Assembly: GCA_947629365.1 (NCBI GenBank)
Contig: CANRDM010000005.1
Span: forward strand, 1 to 34,821
Direction of reading: 5' to 3'
Origin: an uncultured Bacilli bacterium
GTDB taxonomy: Bacteria > Bacillota_I > Bacilli_A > RF39 > UBA660
Length of the DNA: 34,821 bases
Shown here: positions 1,359 to 34,430 of the stretch, piece after piece
How the letters are laid out: every line of letters starts with the position of its first letter
How positions within the stretch are numbered: position 1 is the first letter of the stretch
Program-made: the position numbers and the translations under genes
Notes under the pieces: model-generated
Databases searched by the model: none
Told to the model about the DNA's origin: nothing
The model's input: the letters and a program-made list of their open reading frames with translations, nothing else

Positions 1359-2609
1359 ATGAATTCTAAAAGAAATATTTTATGTATTGATTTAAAAAGT
1401 TTTTTTGCTTCTTGTGAATGCGTTGAAAGAGGGCTTGATCCGTTTACTTATCCTTTAGTAGTAGCTAATAAAAAACAAGGGGGAGGGGCAATCACTTTAG
1501 CTGTTACTCCGTATTTAAAAGCAAAAGGGGTAAAATCAAGGGGCAGAATTTATGAAATACCTAAAAATATAAAGTATGACATAGTAAATCCTAGAATGGG
1601 ACTATATATAGCTAAGAGTAAAGAAGTCATTAGTATTTACCTAGATTTTGTTAGTGAAGATGATTTATTAGTTTACTCTATTGATGAATGTTTTTTAGAT
1701 GTTACTAATTATTTAAGGATGTATAAAAAGACTGATTACGAACTTGCTTTGGATATTCTTAAAACCATTAATGAAGCAACAGGCTTAACAGCAACGTGTG
1801 GAATTGGCCCTAATATGCTTCTTGCCAAAGTAGCAATGGACATTGAAGCTAAACATACAAAAGATAATATTGCCAAATGGGAATATGAAGAGATTAAAGA
1901 AAAATTATGGTCTATTACTCCTCTTTCAAAAATGTGGGGAATAGGCAGAAGAATGGAACAAAATTTAAATAAAATGGGCATTTATCAAATTGGTGATTTA
2001 GCTAAATATAATCCTCTGGAATTAAAAGATAAATTTGGGGTGATGGGAATAGAATTATGGAATCACGCTAATGGCATTGATACAAGTATTATTAAAGATT
2101 ATAAAAAAATAGCTAAATCAGAATCATATAGTCATTCCCAAGTTTTATTTAAAGATTATAATGAAAACAATATTAAAATAATTATTTCCGAAATGGTAGA
2201 TGTCGTAGTGCAAAGATTAAGAGAAAATAATAAAATGACAAGATATATTGGCCTTGGTATTGGTTATTCTAAAGAAATTAATAATGGTTTTTATCATACG
2301 ATTAAGCTGGAAGCTGCAACTGATTCCGAAAAGGAAATTTTAAAATATTGCTTACTTATTTTTGATAAATTTTATGAATATTTACCTATTAGAAAAGTAA
2401 CTGTTACTTGTGCAAACTTAGAAAATAAAGAAAGTACGCAATTAAGTTTGTTTGAAAATGAAGAAGATAGTGAAGAAAATCATATTGGTAAAACAATTGA
2501 TGAGATAAAAAACAAATATGGAAAAAATAGCTTAATAAAAGCCACTAGTCTTTTAGAAGATTCAACTGCTAGAGAAAGAAATCAAAAAATTGGAGGTCAT
2601 TTTGAATGA
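1359..2609 (+). CDS. Y-family DNA polymerase (UmuC/UvrX-like)
   Basis: ILCIDLKSFFASCECVERG, YSIDECFLDVT and GIGPNMLLAKVAMDIEAK motifs; start set at ATG 1359 (MNSKRN) rather than the ORF-track start. Confidence 0.92.
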   Translation: MNSKRNILCIDLKSFFASCECVERGLDPFTYPLVVANKKQGGGAITLAVTPYLKAKGVKSRGRIYEIPKNIKYDIVNPRMGLYIAKSKEVISIYLDFVSEDDLLVYSIDECFLDVTNYLRMYKKTDYELALDILKTINEATGLTATCGIGPNMLLAKVAMDIEAKHTKDNIAKWEYEEIKEKLWSITPLSKMWGIGRRMEQNLNKMGIYQIGDLAKYNPLELKDKFGVMGIELWNHANGIDTSIIKDYKKIAKSESYSHSQVLFKDYNENNIKIIISEMVDVVVQRLRENNKMTRYIGLGIGYSKEINNGFYHTIKLEAATDSEKEILKYCLLIFDKFYEYLPIRKVTVTCANLENKESTQLSLFENEEDSEENHIGKTIDEIKNKYGKNSLIKATSLLEDSTARERNQKIGGHFE

Positions 2610-9652: not shown

Positions 9653-10393
9653 TTAGAAATTTAGTTTTTCAAATAGTCTTTCAATATTTTCTTTCCTAAT
9701 TCTAAATTGAAAACCGTGACAATCTACAATTGGATAGCCAAACATATCAATAGTTTCTTTTAAACTTAGTTCAACGCAAATTGTATCGTTTTTAATTAAA
9801 TTCAGAAATTTTTGAAAACTTTTTAATTTGTAAAAAGTAATATTATAGTATTTAACGTAATTCTCATTGTTAACCTTATATGGAAAGCAGTCAACTAATG
9901 CTAGCTTTTGCAATTTAGCATAAACTTTTTCTTCTAGTAAATCAAATGGCCAATAGCAAATATCTTCTAAAAATTCATTATTTAAATAGGCTTTAAGAAA
10001 AACTTTTCTTTTATAATCATTAACATATAATTTAAAAGTAAAACCATACCTATCTTTTACATAGTGTGAAAACATTTTTAAACTGAATATTTTTTCATCC
10101 GGATTGTTGTACTTTTCATAGGCGTAATTATAAAAGATGTAGTTGTAGGCTGTACCATAATCACATTTTGGAGCACAAGTAAATAATGTAAAGTGAGTAT
10201 TTGAAAAGCCAAATTTACATTTTATTTCAATGCTTCCAAAATCAGGCTTACACTCTTGATCTTCCTTTTTGCCTAGTAATGTTTCGAAAGTGTAACCATA
10301 ACCAGTCGAACCACCACGCATTAGTTTGATTAAGCCCATTCCCTTAATTTTCAAAAATTCTTCTTTCAACTTAACAGCATCATCATCAACCAT
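9653..10393 (-). CDS. MvaI/BcnI-like restriction endonuclease-fold protein (orphan in this window)
   Basis: GGSTGYGYTFETLLGKKEDQECKPDFGSIEIKCK resembles the MvaI/BcnI (MutH-like) catalytic region with D..ExK. Confidence 0.65.
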   Translation of the reverse strand: MVDDDAVKLKEEFLKIKGMGLIKLMRGGSTGYGYTFETLLGKKEDQECKPDFGSIEIKCKFGFSNTHFTLFTCAPKCDYGTAYNYIFYNYAYEKYNNPDEKIFSLKMFSHYVKDRYGFTFKLYVNDYKRKVFLKAYLNNEFLEDICYWPFDLLEEKVYAKLQKLALVDCFPYKVNNENYVKYYNITFYKLKSFQKFLNLIKNDTICVELSLKETIDMFGYPIVDCHGFQFRIRKENIERLFEKLNF

Positions 10394-11152: not shown

Positions 11153-11236
11153 TGGTGGAGGGATATGGATTCGAACCATAGAACTCGAAAGAATAGATTT
11201 ACAGTCTACCGCGTTTGACCTCTTCGCTATCCCTCC
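11153..11236 (-). tRNA. tRNA-Tyr (GTA)
   Basis: GGAGGGATAGCGAAGAGGTCAAACGCGGTAGACTGTAAATCTATTCTTTCGAGTTCTATGGTTCGAATCCATATCCCTCCACCA; long variable arm. Confidence 0.96.
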
Positions 11237-11248
11237 ATATAAAATAAA

Positions 11249-11551
11249 TGGTGCCGACAGAGGGAATCGAACCCCCAACCTACTGATTCATACTACTATA
11301 GTTTTCACTACTTCAATGTCATTTGTAGTCTGGACTTTCTCTTAACCATATTAACATAACTTAGGTCCGTCGTATAAAGTCTCTACACTCGGTATTAACC
11401 TAGCTCGGGATTGTCATATAATTACTTACTTAGAGTTCCCCGAATTAGCGACGTCCACCTTACCCGTTTCCAAATAAGGGTGCAAGATAGTTCAAAAAGT
11501 ATAAACTTCTATCCCACAAGTCAGTTGCGCTACCAATTACGCTATGTCGGC
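11249..11551 (-). tRNA. tRNA-Thr (TGT), interrupted by a group I intron between positions 36 and 37
   Basis: Exons 11516-11551 and 11249-11288 join to GCCGACATAGCGTAATTGGTAGCGCAACTGACTTGT|AATCAGTAGGTTGGGGGTTCGATTCCCTCTGTCGGCACCA (76 nt, full cloverleaf). Confidence 0.93.
11289..11515 (-). other. Group I self-splicing intron (227 nt, no ORF)
   Basis: 5' exon ends in U, intron ends in G; P1 pairs TGT|GGGATAG with CTATCTTGCA (U.G at the splice site); P3 CGTCG/CGACG; P4 CGGG/CCCG with Q-like AATCCCGAGC; R-like GTAGAGACTTTATACGACGG and S-like AAGAGAAAGTCC forming P7. Confidence 0.92.
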
Positions 11552-27239: not shown

Positions 27240-27590
27240 TTAATCTCTAGCTTTAAAAATCATCGCAAATACAAATGAGAAGACAACAACCGAAACAATA
27301 GCTATACCCGATGAACATAATAAATTGGAAAATAAACCTAATACACCACCTTCAGCATAACCTGCTATACCAGCTTGATACAACATATGGCCAAAGTTAG
27401 CAATAAGGGTTGTTGCTCCCGCTCCACAACATAATACTATTTTATCATAGATGCCTAAAAATGATAGTATTGCACCGATTACAGTAACCGCACTTGTAAT
27501 ATGTCCAGGTGTAAGTTTTGTATTATCTAAGACTAACTGACAAATAAGACAAACAGTACCAGCAAACAAGAATGCTTTTAAATACATCAT
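27240..27590 (-). CDS. spoVAE: Stage V sporulation protein AE
   Basis: GTVCLICQLVLDNTKLTPGHITSAVTVIGAILSFLGIYDKI; gene order. Confidence 0.93.
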   Translation of the reverse strand: MMYLKAFLFAGTVCLICQLVLDNTKLTPGHITSAVTVIGAILSFLGIYDKIVLCCGAGATTLIANFGHMLYQAGIAGYAEGGVLGLFSNLLCSSGIAIVSVVVFSFVFAMIFKARD

Positions 27591-28564
27591 TATAAGACCT
27601 CCAAACTAACCGCGTGAGCAATAGCGGGAATAGGACTTTTTTGATTAACAAAAGTTTTACTATGGAGAGCACCTGTACCAATAATTAAGATCTTTTTATA
27701 TTTATTTTGTGGTAAGATTTTATTAAATAAAACAAGTGGTAAACAACTAGGCCCTGATCCACCAGCATATACTTCTTGGCTTTTTAAATATAATTCACAA
27801 CCTGCATCTAAATGGTTTTTTAATTTTAAATTATATTTTAACTCGGCATATTCTTTAAAAATATTGACACCAACTACCCCTAAATCACCAGTTAGAATTA
27901 AATCATAATAATCAAGAGGTCTTTTTAATTCTTCTAAATGCTCATATAATGTTCTTGCTGCTGCGGGAGCCATAACTGCTCCCATATTATTAGCATCTTT
28001 AATACCCATTTCCGTTACTTTACCAATAGTAGCAGATTCAATTTTTATTTTACCTTTATCTTGACTTAAAAGCGTACTAATTGCTGCTGTTGCTGTAAAT
28101 GTTGCACTATGGGGTCTTGGAGCACCATATTCAATTGGATATCTAAATTGTCTTTCCGCTCCTAAGTTATGACTACTAGTAATAGTAATAATCTTTTTTA
28201 AATCTTTATTATTTAAAAAGATACTACCAATAATTAAGCTTTCTGGAAAAGTAGCACAAGCACTGTATATTCCTAAAAGAGATATGGGAATATTCATTGC
28301 TCCATAATTAGTGGCTGTTATTTGATCAAGTAAATCACCACCAATTAATATATCAATATCATTATTAGTTAAATGATTTTTAAAAAGTAACCTTTCAATA
28401 ACGGTTCTTTGCATTTTAGCTTCCGCTTTTTCAAAAGTTTTTTCCCCATAATAATAATCATCCATCGTTAAATCTTTACTTTTAAGACGACTATTGCTTT
28501 CTAATGGTCCTGTTATAGTAAAATAATCATTTAAATAAATATTATTAAATTTTAAACTAGCCAT
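27590..28564 (-). CDS. spoVAD: Stage V sporulation protein AD
   Basis: Thiolase-like; GLLGIYSACATFPESLIIG-type and PRPHSATFTATAA; gene order. Confidence 0.94.
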   Translation of the reverse strand: MASLKFNNIYLNDYFTITGPLESNSRLKSKDLTMDDYYYGEKTFEKAEAKMQRTVIERLLFKNHLTNNDIDILIGGDLLDQITATNYGAMNIPISLLGIYSACATFPESLIIGSIFLNNKDLKKIITITSSHNLGAERQFRYPIEYGAPRPHSATFTATAAISTLLSQDKGKIKIESATIGKVTEMGIKDANNMGAVMAPAAARTLYEHLEELKRPLDYYDLILTGDLGVVGVNIFKEYAELKYNLKLKNHLDAGCELYLKSQEVYAGGSGPSCLPLVLFNKILPQNKYKKILIIGTGALHSKTFVNQKSPIPAIAHAVSLEVL

Positions 28565-28994
28565 ATAATACCACCTTTAATACACATAGAAAGAAAGCAC
28601 TAACTATTCCATATAATATTACTGAACCAGCTAGTTTAAATATATTAGCGCCAATACCTGTTACTAAACCATCTTTTTTATAATCTAAAGCAGCACTTTG
28701 AACACTATGAGCAAAACCTGTTGTAGGTATTATAAGTCCACATTTTGCTTTGGCAACCCAATTATCAAATTTGCCAAGGGCAGTCATAAATGTTGCAAAA
28801 AGAATTAGAATAAAAGAAAGCCACATACAAGAATCTACTCTAGCAAGTCCAAATGATTCCATTAAAATATTAATAATAACTTCACCAATAAAACCAATAA
28901 AACCACCTACTAAAAAAGCTAGTAAGGCATTTCTAAACTTAGGTTCCTTTGGTGATAATTGTTTAACTAATTTTTGATATTCTGTTTTATTCAT
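28557..28994 (-). CDS. spoVAC: Stage V sporulation protein AC
   Basis: FLVGGFIGFIGEVI...GLIIPTTGFAHSVQSAALDYKKDGLVTGIGANIFKLAGSVILYG. Confidence 0.94.
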   Translation of the reverse strand: MNKTEYQKLVKQLSPKEPKFRNALLAFLVGGFIGFIGEVIINILMESFGLARVDSCMWLSFILILFATFMTALGKFDNWVAKAKCGLIIPTTGFAHSVQSAALDYKKDGLVTGIGANIFKLAGSVILYGIVSAFFLCVLKVVLYG

Positions 28995-29039
28995 TATTCA
29001 TTCACCATTTTTATTATGAATAAATACTACCAAATTATA

Positions 29040-29678
29040 CTAATTTGTTAAATATTCTCTTAACTTATCAATACTTTTTTTCTCATATCTTGAAACCATT
29101 ACTTGGGTCATATTAAGTTTTCTTGCTACTTCACTTTGAGTTAAATCTTCAAAATATCTTGATTTAATAATATTTTTCTCATCATCATTTAACACTTCAA
29201 AACTATCATTAATAAATATTTTTGTATCTAAATCTTCACTTTTACCTATACATTCATAAATAGATTTATCAAAATCATTTTCACTATCAAGTGATAGAAT
29301 AATATTAGCACTATTACAAGCACTTTCTACCATTTCTAAACTAATATCTAAAAATTCTGATAGTTCTAAATTACTTGGTATTTTACCTAATTTTTGAGCT
29401 AAAGTATATCTTGCTTCTTCTATTTTCTTATAAAGATTTAAAATGTCTTTACTAACTTTAATATTTTTATTACTAGCAAGTAAATACATCTCACCAAAAA
29501 TATAATCGTGAGCATAAGTAGAAAATTTAGTTTTACCATCTTTTCGATAATTTTTTAAAGCTTTTAAAAGACCAACTACTCCCGCTTGGAATAAATCATC
29601 ACTACTTGTTCCATAGAAATGACTAGCTATTTTCCAAATCAATTTTTCATTATCTTTTATTATCTTTTCATAGTCCAT
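29040..29678 (-). CDS. sigF: Sporulation sigma factor, SigF/SigG type
   Basis: DDLFQAGVVGLLKALKNYRKDGKTKFSTYAHDYIFGEM; LTQSEVARKLNMTQVMVSRYEKKSIDKLREYL; synteny spoIIAA-sigma-spoVA. Confidence 0.85.
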   Translation of the reverse strand: MDYEKIIKDNEKLIWKIASHFYGTSSDDLFQAGVVGLLKALKNYRKDGKTKFSTYAHDYIFGEMYLLASNKNIKVSKDILNLYKKIEEARYTLAQKLGKIPSNLELSEFLDISLEMVESACNSANIILSLDSENDFDKSIYECIGKSEDLDTKIFINDSFEVLNDDEKNIIKSRYFEDLTQSEVARKLNMTQVMVSRYEKKSIDKLREYLTN

Positions 29679-30140: not shown

Positions 30141-32007
30141 TTACGAGTTTCCCTTCTCGAGTTGTGTTTTTTCTATTATGAATGGGTCTGCTGAAGTCCC
30201 AGAACCGAAGGAAATCAAAGTATCAGCCGAAAGGTAGAAGACGGGGCGAACCGAATACTGGGCATTTAATTGCGAGCTAACAGGTGCACTCGACGAACTC
30301 ACTGCCCAGTCATAGAAAAAGGCTGCCAATCCTTCGTAGGTTCTAGTCATCGTCCATTCTCCGTAGTCGTTTTCGAAACTAACTCCTTTATTTTGGAGAG
30401 CTAACCAACTCTCCCAACAATGGTCTTTGTTGCAGTTTGTATTAGAAGAATCTAATCCATCTGATGCATATGAGTAGTAAAGATCACTTACAAACATTAA
30501 TCCCACTTTAGCCTGAACACTATAAATGGAATATCTTTCATGATTATATAGGTTGTCAGCACTAGTCTTTACATATTCCAGTACCATTATTATCACCTGC
30601 ATTGCAAGCACCAACAAAGCGATACATATCATCATTATATGTTGAGCTATCTTTAGATGACTCTCCCAGTATACTATCACTTAATCCATTTGGCTTATTA
30701 TTACCAGTAATTAAATCTTTACCTGTTATTCCCTTTTTATCTGTTGTTACAATTACGCTTGGATTATTTGTACTATACCTTCCTGAACCATCTCTTACTC
30801 TTGCTTCTATTGTATATGCTGTTCCTTCTTCTAATGCTGTTCCATCATCTAAAATACTTATTGTACACTCACCATTTGGTTCTGCATCGGTCCAATTATT
30901 TTGATCATTTATTTTACATTGTCTTTCTATTATTCCTGTTTTATCTATTTCGTTCCCCACTGCTACTGTTATACTATCTGTTGTTTTACTTTTCTCTTCT
31001 ATTCCTGCTGTTGGATTTTGCAAATCTAATGTTATTGTTTTAGTTGATATTGTGGATTCATTACCTGCCTTATCTTTTACTTTTATACTTAAGGTTTTTA
31101 TTCCTTCACTTTCAGTTAAATTATATTCTTTTTTCGTTATTTCTTTTTCTATAGTTTCTAGATAACTACAACCACTATTTTCATATACACAATAACTTTC
31201 TATATTTTCTTCTGTTATATTTGCATTATATGTTATATCTTTTGTATGGGTATATGTTTCATTATTACTTAATTGTTGTCCTTCATCTGCTGTTCCGGTT
31301 AATGTAAATGTATTTATTACAGGTTTTGTTTTATCTACTGTTATGCTTTTTGTTTGTACTTCTGATATATTATTTGCTTTATCTTTTAAATATATGTGTA
31401 ATGTTTTTTGTCCATCTTTGTTATCCTTCAATGAATAACTATTTGACTCAGCTAGTGAATACCAATTACAATTATCATTACCTTCTGTTTCATTTATACA
31501 ATATTGTTTTACATCTTCTTCTGTATCTGTATATTCTACTGTAAATGGTAAACTATCTGTTTGATATGTAAAGTCATTATTTAATTCTTGATTACTATTT
31601 GTTTTTCCCTTTATTTCAAAATCAGTTATAATTGGTGCTTCATTCTTATCAAAGTATAAATTACAATAAATTGTATTACTACTTTCTATTGTTATACTTC
31701 CATCTATTATTTCATTTACTAAATTTTGTGTTGGTTTATAACTTGTTTCTTTGCCATTATAATCATAACATACCGTTTTAGTTGTATTTAATAAATAGCC
31801 TTGACTAGGAAATGATTCACTACTTGATGGATTATAATCTTCACTTCCAACTGATTGTTGTAAATATATATTAAATTCTTTTCTTTCTATTTTTATTACT
31901 TTATTTTTTTCTACTATATTATTATCTTTTTTTAATATTAAAAATATATTTAATATTAATAACAATATTATTACAATTACTATTCCTACTCTTTTATTCT
32001 TATTCAT
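30141..32007 (-). pseudogene. Surface protein 1: N-terminal anchor, Ig/FN3-like repeats and a C-terminal SVRPVFYL-type domain, split by a frameshift
   Basis: ORF 30562-32007 (start MNKNKRVG behind AGGAGAG) ends ...GTGICKD-stop; ORF 30141-30680 continues in another frame as TSADNLYNHERYS...WTMTRTYEGLAAFF...YSVRPVFYLSADTLISFGSGTSADPFIIE. Confidence 0.65.
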
Positions 32008-32026
32008 AGATACTCTCCTAATCTTC

Positions 32027-32136
32027 ACGGCACAATTGTCATATTTATAAATTACCACAGCACGGCATAAATGTCAAGATGAGAAACCGGCTTTTGTGCC
32101 GTTGGAAAGAAAATATAATTATGACATAATTGCCGT
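32027..32136. promoter_or_regulatory. Operator array for the divergent XRE regulator
   Basis: ACGGCA-N4-TGTCA at 32027 (+), 32062 (+) and 32120-32136 (-), plus half-site GTGCCGT at 32096. Confidence 0.65.
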
Positions 32137-32474: not shown

Positions 32475-34334
32475 TTATTGCTTTCTCTCTGCTTCTTTAT
32501 AACAAACTAGATTACTTGTCCCACTATTTGATAATTCACTCCAACCAGAATCACAAGAATAAACTTCTTCATCATAGCTCCCTATACTTCCAAGCTCTTC
32601 CGTTTTAACGCATGCACTCTCACAACTATCTTGATCGGAATATTCTACTTTATTAAGACTGCATTTCGAAACCTGTTGCACTTCTACTGGACTTTTTCGA
32701 TCAATGCACATTAGCGAGCAAGTGTCGTAGTCATATATCTTGTTATCAAAACTGCATTGAGCATATTTTAATTCTCTGTCGGTAGGACTACATGAAAAGT
32801 AACGGTAACATCTACCAAAAGTGTCTAGGTAGTAAGAATCATCGCACACATTTTTGTAAGAATTAGTACACGTCCCCTTTGTTTCTTTACTACAGGCAGA
32901 CTTAGCGGCAATCTCAGATTCATATTTAACTGAAGGCTCAACGCTACATGTCCAGTAAGTAACTAAAGAAGATTTACCATTACTTTTACAAATCCATCCC
33001 TTTTGTTCATCAAAAGCTAAATCTCCACCTATATTATTACAAGTATATTCAAATTGGGTTGTAACTTCTATACTTGGATTATTTGTACTATACCTTCCTG
33101 ATGCATCTCTTACTCTTCCTTCTATTGTATATTCTTGACCATCTTTTAATTCTTGCCCATCTGATAATTTATCTATTGTACAACTTCCATCTTCTTCTGC
33201 ATTCGTCCAATTATCTGTTCCATTTAATCTACATTGTTGTTCTATTATACTACTATTTGGTGTTTTATCTTCTCCACTTACTGTTACCGTTATACTATTT
33301 GTTGTTTTACTTTTCTCTTCTATTGTTGATGTTGGATTTTGCAAATCTAATGTTATTGTTTTAGTTGAATTGATATCAACAACAGATTCATTTCCTGCCT
33401 TATCTTTTACTTTTATACTTAAGGTTTTTATTCCTTCACTTTCAGTTAAATTATATTCTTTTTTCGTTAATTCTTTTTCTATAGTTTCTTCATAATTACA
33501 ACCACTATTTTCATATACACAATAACTTTCTATATTTGTTTCATTTATACTTGCATTATATGTTATATTTGGCTTATGTGTATATTGTGCACTATTACTT
33601 AATGTTTGATTTTCATCTGAGGTTCCTGTTAATGTAAATGTATTTATTACAGGTTTTGTTTTATCTACGGTTATGGTATATTGACTCACTCCTGATATAT
33701 TATTTGCTTTATCTTTTAAATATATATACATTGTTTTTAATCCATCTGTTTTATCTATTAATGTATATGTACCTTTTGTTCCACTTAATGTTTGCCAATT
33801 ACAATTATCACTACCTTCTGTTTCATTTATACAATATTGTTTTACATCTTCTTCTGTATCTGTATATTCTATATTAAATGGTAAACTATCTGTTTGATAG
33901 GTAAACCCATTATTTAATTCTTGATTACTACTTGTTTTTCCTTTTACATTAAAAGTAGTTATTGTTGGCTTTTCATTTTTATCAAAATATAAATTACAAT
34001 AAGTTGTTTTATTACTTTCTATTGTTATACTTCCATCTATTATTTCATTTACTAAATTTTGTGTTGGTTTATAACTTGTTTCTTTGCCATTATAATCATA
34101 ACATACCGTTTTAGTTGTATTTAATAAATAGCCTTGACTAGGAAATGATTCACTACTTGATGGATTATAATCTTCACTTCCAACTGATTGTTGTAAATAT
34201 ATATTAAATTCTTTTCTTTCTATCTTTATTACTTTATTTTTTTCTACTATATTATTATCTTTCTTAAATATTAAAAATACATTTAATATTAATAACAATA
34301 TAATAACTCCTACTATATAGCCTTTATTTTTCAT
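32475..34334 (-). CDS. Surface protein 2: paralogous N-terminus and Ig/FN3-like repeats with a Cys-rich C-terminal cassette
   Basis: Start MKNKGYIVGV behind GGAGGAG; N-terminal ~400 aa closely matches surface protein 1; C-terminus TCNNIGGDLAFDEQKGWICKSN... unrelated. Confidence 0.85.
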   Translation of the reverse strand: MKNKGYIVGVIILLLILNVFLIFKKDNNIVEKNKVIKIERKEFNIYLQQSVGSEDYNPSSSESFPSQGYLLNTTKTVCYDYNGKETSYKPTQNLVNEIIDGSITIESNKTTYCNLYFDKNEKPTITTFNVKGKTSSNQELNNGFTYQTDSLPFNIEYTDTEEDVKQYCINETEGSDNCNWQTLSGTKGTYTLIDKTDGLKTMYIYLKDKANNISGVSQYTITVDKTKPVINTFTLTGTSDENQTLSNSAQYTHKPNITYNASINETNIESYCVYENSGCNYEETIEKELTKKEYNLTESEGIKTLSIKVKDKAGNESVVDINSTKTITLDLQNPTSTIEEKSKTTNSITVTVSGEDKTPNSSIIEQQCRLNGTDNWTNAEEDGSCTIDKLSDGQELKDGQEYTIEGRVRDASGRYSTNNPSIEVTTQFEYTCNNIGGDLAFDEQKGWICKSNGKSSLVTYWTCSVEPSVKYESEIAAKSACSKETKGTCTNSYKNVCDDSYYLDTFGRCYRYFSCSPTDRELKYAQCSFDNKIYDYDTCSLMCIDRKSPVEVQQVSKCSLNKVEYSDQDSCESACVKTEELGSIGSYDEEVYSCDSGWSELSNSGTSNLVCYKEAERKQ

Positions 34335-34343
34335 AAACTCCTC

Positions 34344-34430
34344 CATTAATGATATCACTATGTTATCACTAAAATGATAACATAATATTATCACTTTGTA
34401 AATATTAAATTTGTTAGCGATATGATATCA
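34344..34430. promoter_or_regulatory. Candidate operator region for the RHH regulator
   Basis: Palindrome ATGTTATCACTAAAATGATAACAT flanked by AATGATATCA and TGATATCATT copies. Confidence 0.55.

Follow-up and report, generated by a model that had tools for sequence, protein, structure and literature searches.

Does the 227-nt insert that splits a tRNA-Thr(UGU) gene remove itself from the precursor, or is the gene dead? The gene lies in two halves at 11551..11249 on the minus strand of contig CANRDM010000005.1 (assembly GCA_947629365.1), from an uncultured Bacilli bacterium. We analysed the 34,821-nt stretch of this contig at full length (the window). An earlier sequence-only reading had proposed a minimal group I intron in the anticodon loop. 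We find that the insert is very probably a self-splicing group I intron lacking a homing endonuclease gene (HEG). It belongs to a mobile lineage of gut Bacillota, whose guide fits the UGUAA found in both the Thr and the Tyr tRNAs.

A group I intron in the only tRNA-Thr(UGU) gene found

With introns allowed, ARAGORN read the anticodon TGT and placed an intron of 227 nt at 36/37; once joined, the exons make up a complete, perfect 76-nt tRNA-Thr(UGU) with CCA encoded. This agrees with the sequence-only reading, which had the break after base 36 and an insert that follows a U and ends in G; the borders and the terminal G are correct. Its coordinates, 11249-11551, also stand, the minus strand being left unsaid. 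With introns off, as by default, ARAGORN did not call the split gene in the window. The parts of the locus are as follows.

11516..11551, minus strand: tRNA-Thr(UGU) 5' exon, nucleotides 1-36, ending with the anticodon UGU (ARAGORN with introns; identical to uninterrupted genes in relatives)
11289..11515, minus strand: group I intron, 227 nt, no open reading frame (ORF), after U36, last base G (RF00028, E=1.5e-6; model R1; covariation)
11249..11288, minus strand: tRNA-Thr(UGU) 3' exon, starting with A37, CCA encoded (ARAGORN with introns; 100% match in same-genus relatives)
11153..11236, minus strand: adjacent tRNA-Tyr(GUA), uninterrupted here and host of sister introns in relatives (tRNA calls; relatives' loci)

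The Rfam group I model RF00028 matches 11513..11311 (minus strand) over its whole length, with 32.1 bits (E=1.5e-6 in a search of 401 bases). At the gathering threshold, the Rfam search reported no match at the intron. The comparison with RF00028 suggested earlier gave a match that falls short of the database cut-off. None of 15 scanned Bacillota loci of the same kind passes at gathering, while three Patescibacteria loci do; one of the 15 (L055) is borderline, with 50.8 bits in a different RF00028 search. We did not count the misses by Rfam at gathering and by default ARAGORN as evidence against the intron.

Because the intron scores below gathering, we tested its structure directly by alignment. 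We aligned 46 tRNA-Thr introns (alignment A1) and counted pairs in a hand-built structure that includes the P3/P7 pseudoknot. Across its 67 pairs, 99.0% of cells were paired, and 36 pairs showed two-sided changes, in 324 cells as against 82 (s.d. 8) in shuffled controls. When the partners were slid by 1-3 columns, pairing fell to 37-43% and the two-sided changes to 48 or fewer. Covariation was seen in P1 and its extension, P2, P3, P5, P6a, P8 and P9; one P5 pair occurs as AU, GC, UA, CG and GU. Model R1, whose 29 sequences include the window intron, scores it at 163.6 bits.

The hallmarks of group I introns are present: the 5' splice site has a U-G wobble and the intron an internal guide, a P3/P7 pseudoknot surrounds P4-P6 and P8 (P3 covaries; P4 and P7 pair in almost every sequence and do not vary), and the last intron base before the 3' splice site is a guanosine. 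The homing endonuclease expected of a mobile intron is absent, there being no ORF within the 227 nt, as had been noted before. The earlier call of a ribozyme with P1 U.G, P3, P4 and P7 is thus borne out by the RF00028 alignment, the covariation, the guide and the empty sites described below. Taken together, the sequence comparisons argue that the tRNA-Thr(UGU) anticodon loop houses a compact group I intron, of the Azoarcus (IC3) type and with no HEG.

Searching 38 genomes of the same genus with model R1, we found the intron in three (G000, G036 and G006). The intronless loci that could be read show Val-Thr-Tyr-Gln-Lys, or as much of this array as the contig holds, with an intact Thr(UGU). At these empty sites the two Thr(UGU) parts abut exactly at 36/37 in the same syntenic place, and both exons of the window gene are 100% identical to the intronless orthologues. 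The search for homologues in related genomes, also advised earlier, turned up same-type introns in tRNA-Thr(UGU), for example in G036 and G006.

The sequence-only reading saw no other tRNA-Thr in the window, and we found no second tRNA-Thr(UGU) anywhere in the source genome (assembly 88% complete, 112 contigs). Nor did the Thr-intron genomes that we checked, one of them 99% complete, contain an intact copy; the matches in G154 and G282 carry a CGU anticodon, not UGU. In G206, G136 and G800, which have a Tyr intron, there is an intact tRNA-Thr(UGU). ACA accounts for 196 of the 8453 codons in the ORFs of the window. As ACA codons are in use and no other intact tRNA-Thr(UGU) was found, the split gene must be spliced to serve.

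Some observations weigh against a self-splicing intron. The 32.1 bits lie below the RF00028 gathering score of 50, which is a database criterion and not a biological one. In a genome that is 88% complete, an intact tRNA-Thr(UGU) could escape detection there alone. The structure tested was derived from one of the 46 aligned sequences, and the catalytic core (P4 and P7) hardly varies among them, so that covariation speaks neither for nor against its pairing. Folded without pseudoknots, the pre-tRNA has an unremarkable minimum free energy (z=-1.16), a score that we set aside as uninformative.

The missing HEG and the low Rfam score would also suit a dead tRNA gene copy holding a decayed, non-splicing intron. 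We consider this very improbable: the exons are unchanged from the uninterrupted orthologues, no other tRNA-Thr(UGU) was found while ACA codons are common, and the fold is maintained across 46 sequences. Archaeal-style excision by a protein tRNA-splicing endonuclease and a ligase would fit a site 3' of the anticodon, near the usual archaeal and eukaryotic position (PMC4090602). A complete and conserved group I core within the 227 nt, together with the U-G pair at the splice site, the guide and the last G, makes such a route barely credible. An archaeal-type tRNA-splicing endonuclease is not known from bacteria. The draft genome is fragmented, which might raise the thought of an assembly artefact; the same intron interrupts the same base in G036 (99%), G006 (91%) and dozens of other assemblies, and the chance of such an error is negligible. 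We therefore retain the self-splicing group I intron.

Fold and proposed splicing pathway

The elements of the intron, all on the minus strand, are listed in transcript order.

11509..11518: P1 5' strand, made up of UGU from the exon and GGGAUAG from the intron; the U36-G wobble lies at the splice site (sequence; pairs counted)
11481..11490: P1 3' strand, with the internal guide UUGCA at 11485..11481, complementary to the ligated exons UGU-AA
11458..11479: P2 hairpin, with the L2 GAAA tetraloop at 11470..11467 (two-sided changes in 8 of 9 pairs)
11449..11453: P3 5' strand CGUCG (3 of 5 pairs covary with 11372..11368)
11439..11443: P4 5' strand UCGGG, partner 11409..11405 (invariant in 46 sequences)
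11414..11434: P5, with an 11-nt-receptor-like motif (UCUAAG...UAUGA) and a short GUAA-capped end
11405..11409: P4 3' strand CCCGA (covariation count)
11376..11381: P7 5' strand GACUUU, guanosine-binding helix, partner 11338..11333 (99.3% of cells paired, nearly invariant)
11368..11372: P3 3' strand CGACG (covariation count)
11345..11366: P8, with an 11-nt receptor (CCUAAG...UAUGG) (alignment, covariation, motif comparison)
11333..11338: P7 3' strand AAAGUC (covariation count)
11292..11329: P9 domain, with L9 GAAA at 11306..11303 (P9 and P9a pairs covary)
11289..11289: terminal guanosine (omega G), 3' splice site (G here in all 98 Thr and Tyr introns listed)

P1 reaches 10 bp in 40 of the 47 Thr introns. 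The GAAA loops of L2 and L9 face the 11-nt-receptor-like P8 and P5. L2 and P8 change together: Thr introns combine GAAA with an 11-nt receptor, while a Clostridia Tyr clade mostly has GUGA, otherwise other GNRA loops, with a plain P8 helix containing CU:AG. A GUGA loop prefers a CU:AG receptor, and the correlated change supports L2-P8 docking. Automatic picks of L2 and L9 included some misfolded loops, and we used the 46-sequence alignment instead.

The L2-P8 and L9-P5 tetraloop/receptor motifs and the 3-nt guide are those of IC3 introns, by comparison with 1U6B as tabulated in PMC3494683. For this Azoarcus crystal structure, two GAAA/11-nt receptor contacts are listed (PMC3494683), and the guide of the Azoarcus intron also has 3 nt (PMC6274277). 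With Azoarcus-like contacts and a 3-nt guide, the ordinary two-step guanosine pathway is thus expected here. We take the listed 1U6B residues to be those of L2-P8 and L9-P5.

On this pathway, the intron would be transcribed with the tRNA and would then fold around the P3/P7 pseudoknot. The GCA of the guide 5'-UUGCA-3' would pair with the anticodon UGU in P1, U36 forming a wobble with G at the splice site, and its UU would then pair with A37-A38, the first bases of the 3' exon, as a short P10. An exogenous guanosine held in P7 would attack after U36; U36 would then attack after the terminal G, joining the exons into tRNA-Thr(UGU). Judged from sequence, the intron very probably cuts itself out of the tRNA-Thr(UGU) precursor, in vitro as well as in vivo.

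An intron family in gut Bacillota

Searching 85,462 species genomes with a DNA pattern of the core, we found at least 118 stretches, to which loci from other searches were added. At least 47 introns interrupt tRNA-Thr(UGU) after U36 (site 36/37) and at least 51 interrupt tRNA-Tyr(GUA) after U35, one base earlier (35/36). Almost all of those listed are in gut Bacillota assemblies, one tRNA-Tyr case being on a viral contig. All 47 Thr introns and 50 of the 51 Tyr introns have the guide UUGCA (97 of the 98 listed). Both anticodon loops contain UGUAA, one base out of register (Thr CUUGUAA, at 34-38; Tyr CUGUAAA, at 33-37), which explains why these two tRNAs are the hosts and why the site shifts by one base. 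In even samples, model R1 matched 15 of 395 genomes of the class and 8 of 392 of the phylum, some of them weakly. A related intron splits a tRNA-Lys(CUU) after U35 in L101 (~2246..2509), where a matching changed guide, GGAG, was seen by eye. Other RF00028 matches in the family (L052-L054, L056-L058, L060 and L066) have no tRNA gene around them, and those in L061-L064 look like chance.

Some relatives carry endonuclease ORFs. Four Tyr introns are 591-606 nt long; the ORFs of two (L055 and L059) match PF11645 PDDEXK_5 (E=2e-17 and 4e-18) and sit upstream of the guide. The nearest solved chain in the PDB is 2OST, a weak match (E=0.035), which we take to be I-Ssp6803I. Thr introns of ~625 nt have an HNH ORF inside L5, the place of a short hairpin in the window intron. 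This ORF is intact in L211 and L217 (PF01844); frameshifts interrupt it in L216 and L212, and L218 (336 nt) keeps a relic of it. Such intact, decayed and absent ORFs look like the gain, decay and loss cycle of homing endonucleases, with both homing by the ORFs and the order of gain and loss being presumed. A tree of the cores is compatible with the window lineage having lost the HNH ORF or never having had one.

In the core tree, the host label switches at least four times across well-supported branches, and the Thr and Tyr introns of one genome cluster together in L211 and in L212. Within these genomes the Thr and Tyr cores share 95.4% and 94.4% identity, respectively; between the two, Thr-Thr cores are 91.4% and Tyr-Tyr cores 92.6% identical. 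These near-matching cores suggest exchange between hosts. The intron ends remain host-specific (Thr GUAUG, Bacilli Tyr GUAAAG) and the two genes are neighbours. Given such ends, gene conversion of the core between neighbours explains the likeness at least as well as repeated jumps, and we lean towards conversion between introns already in adjacent genes as its main source. Against this, the Thr and Tyr cores of L120 are only 90.1% identical, no higher than across genomes (its Thr copy is incomplete), ends could re-adapt after a jump, and at least one ancestral jump between hosts would still be required. On balance, we favour one IC3-type lineage with one guide, UUGCA, and two adjacent hosts (Thr 36/37 and Tyr 35/36), which trades cores and, at two separate sites within the intron, has gained and lost endonucleases of two unrelated types.

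BLASTN of the intron against plasmids gave no match, and against phages only short matches to parts of its 3' half. Of the two that we inspected, one adjoins a capsid gene whose annotation is in pieces and the other a helicase gene, and neither lies in a tRNA. In Pelagibacter phage HTVC120P (L206), an intron-3'-like stretch lies between the two pieces of the capsid gene (gp29 and gp30), and this interval is possibly an unannotated group I intron. A 2014 review knew phage group I introns in protein genes only. On the viral contigs L193, L195, L189, L204, L205, L190 and L202, tRNA genes seem to contain introns that share the P4 core motif, all of them scoring below Rfam gathering; in L193 (an IMG/VR contig of 202 kb) a CUA suppressor tRNA is cut after U35.

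The sequence-only reading considered host and position unusual, a view that calls for some qualification. In the open-access literature searched, we found no description of a group I intron in tRNA-Thr or tRNA-Tyr of Bacillota, but dozens of genomes of gut Bacillota have an intron at 36/37, and the sister introns lie one base earlier in tRNA-Tyr. The kind is a known, IC3-like one; what is new, within the bounds of that literature, is the hosts in Bacillota, and tRNA-Thr(UGU) and tRNA-Tyr(GUA) join the short list of bacterial tRNA hosts of group I introns. In this part of the gut microbiota, annotation mostly misses both the intron, which is below the Rfam cut-off, and the tRNA, and genomes then seem to be without a needed tRNA. 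The tRNAscan-SE authors describe tRNA-fMet and tRNA-Ile2 genes missed for the same reason, and frequent invasion of tRNAs by group I introns has been noted as a private communication (PMC8172020). With intact, decayed and absent endonucleases in close relatives, the family is also a natural test case for the way in which a guide of 3 nt sets the tRNAs open to an intron.

Elsewhere in the window, on the minus strand, an ORF for an MvaI/BcnI-type restriction endonuclease (9653..10393; PF15515, E=1e-28) lies close to the tRNA array; no methyltransferase ORF is evident next to it. Two adjacent long paralogous proteins (30562..32058 and 32475..34394) have a common N-terminal region and repeats. By eye, the genes at 27240..29678 look like those for SpoVA components and for a sigma factor of sporulation, which suggests a spore former.

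Comparison with known tRNA introns

The tRNA-Leu(UAA) introns of cyanobacteria and plastids are likewise group I introns in an anticodon loop; unlike the window intron, they are inserted within the anticodon of that other tRNA. In L214 (1406..2197, minus strand), a tRNA-Leu-like gene is split by ~700 nt with an RF00028 score of 65.3 bits; its insert has an HNH-like ORF by eye and no Pfam match.

The cyanobacterial tRNA-fMet(CAU) intron with I-Ssp6803I resembles the Tyr sister introns in combining a tRNA group I intron with a PD-(D/E)XK endonuclease, while the window intron has another host and no ORF. Patescibacteria tRNA introns match the P4 motif pattern as the window intron does, and differ from it in host, guide, a shorter core and a score above the Rfam cut-off. 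In L088, L091, L123 and others, tRNA-Asn(GUU) is split after U35 (RF00028 56-75 bits), and group I introns possibly occur in further Patescibacteria tRNAs; introns of this group are mentioned in tRNAs of the candidate phyla radiation (PMC8172020).

The comparison with the IC3 intron in tRNA-Ile(CAU) of Azoarcus sp. BH72 is one of motifs. The window intron differs in its tRNA-Thr(UGU) host, its guide GCA and a P5 receptor that departs from the strict 11-nt consensus. Both are small introns without an ORF in an anticodon loop, with a 3-nt guide pairing beside the splice site and L2-P8 and L9-P5 contacts of the GAAA/11-nt type.
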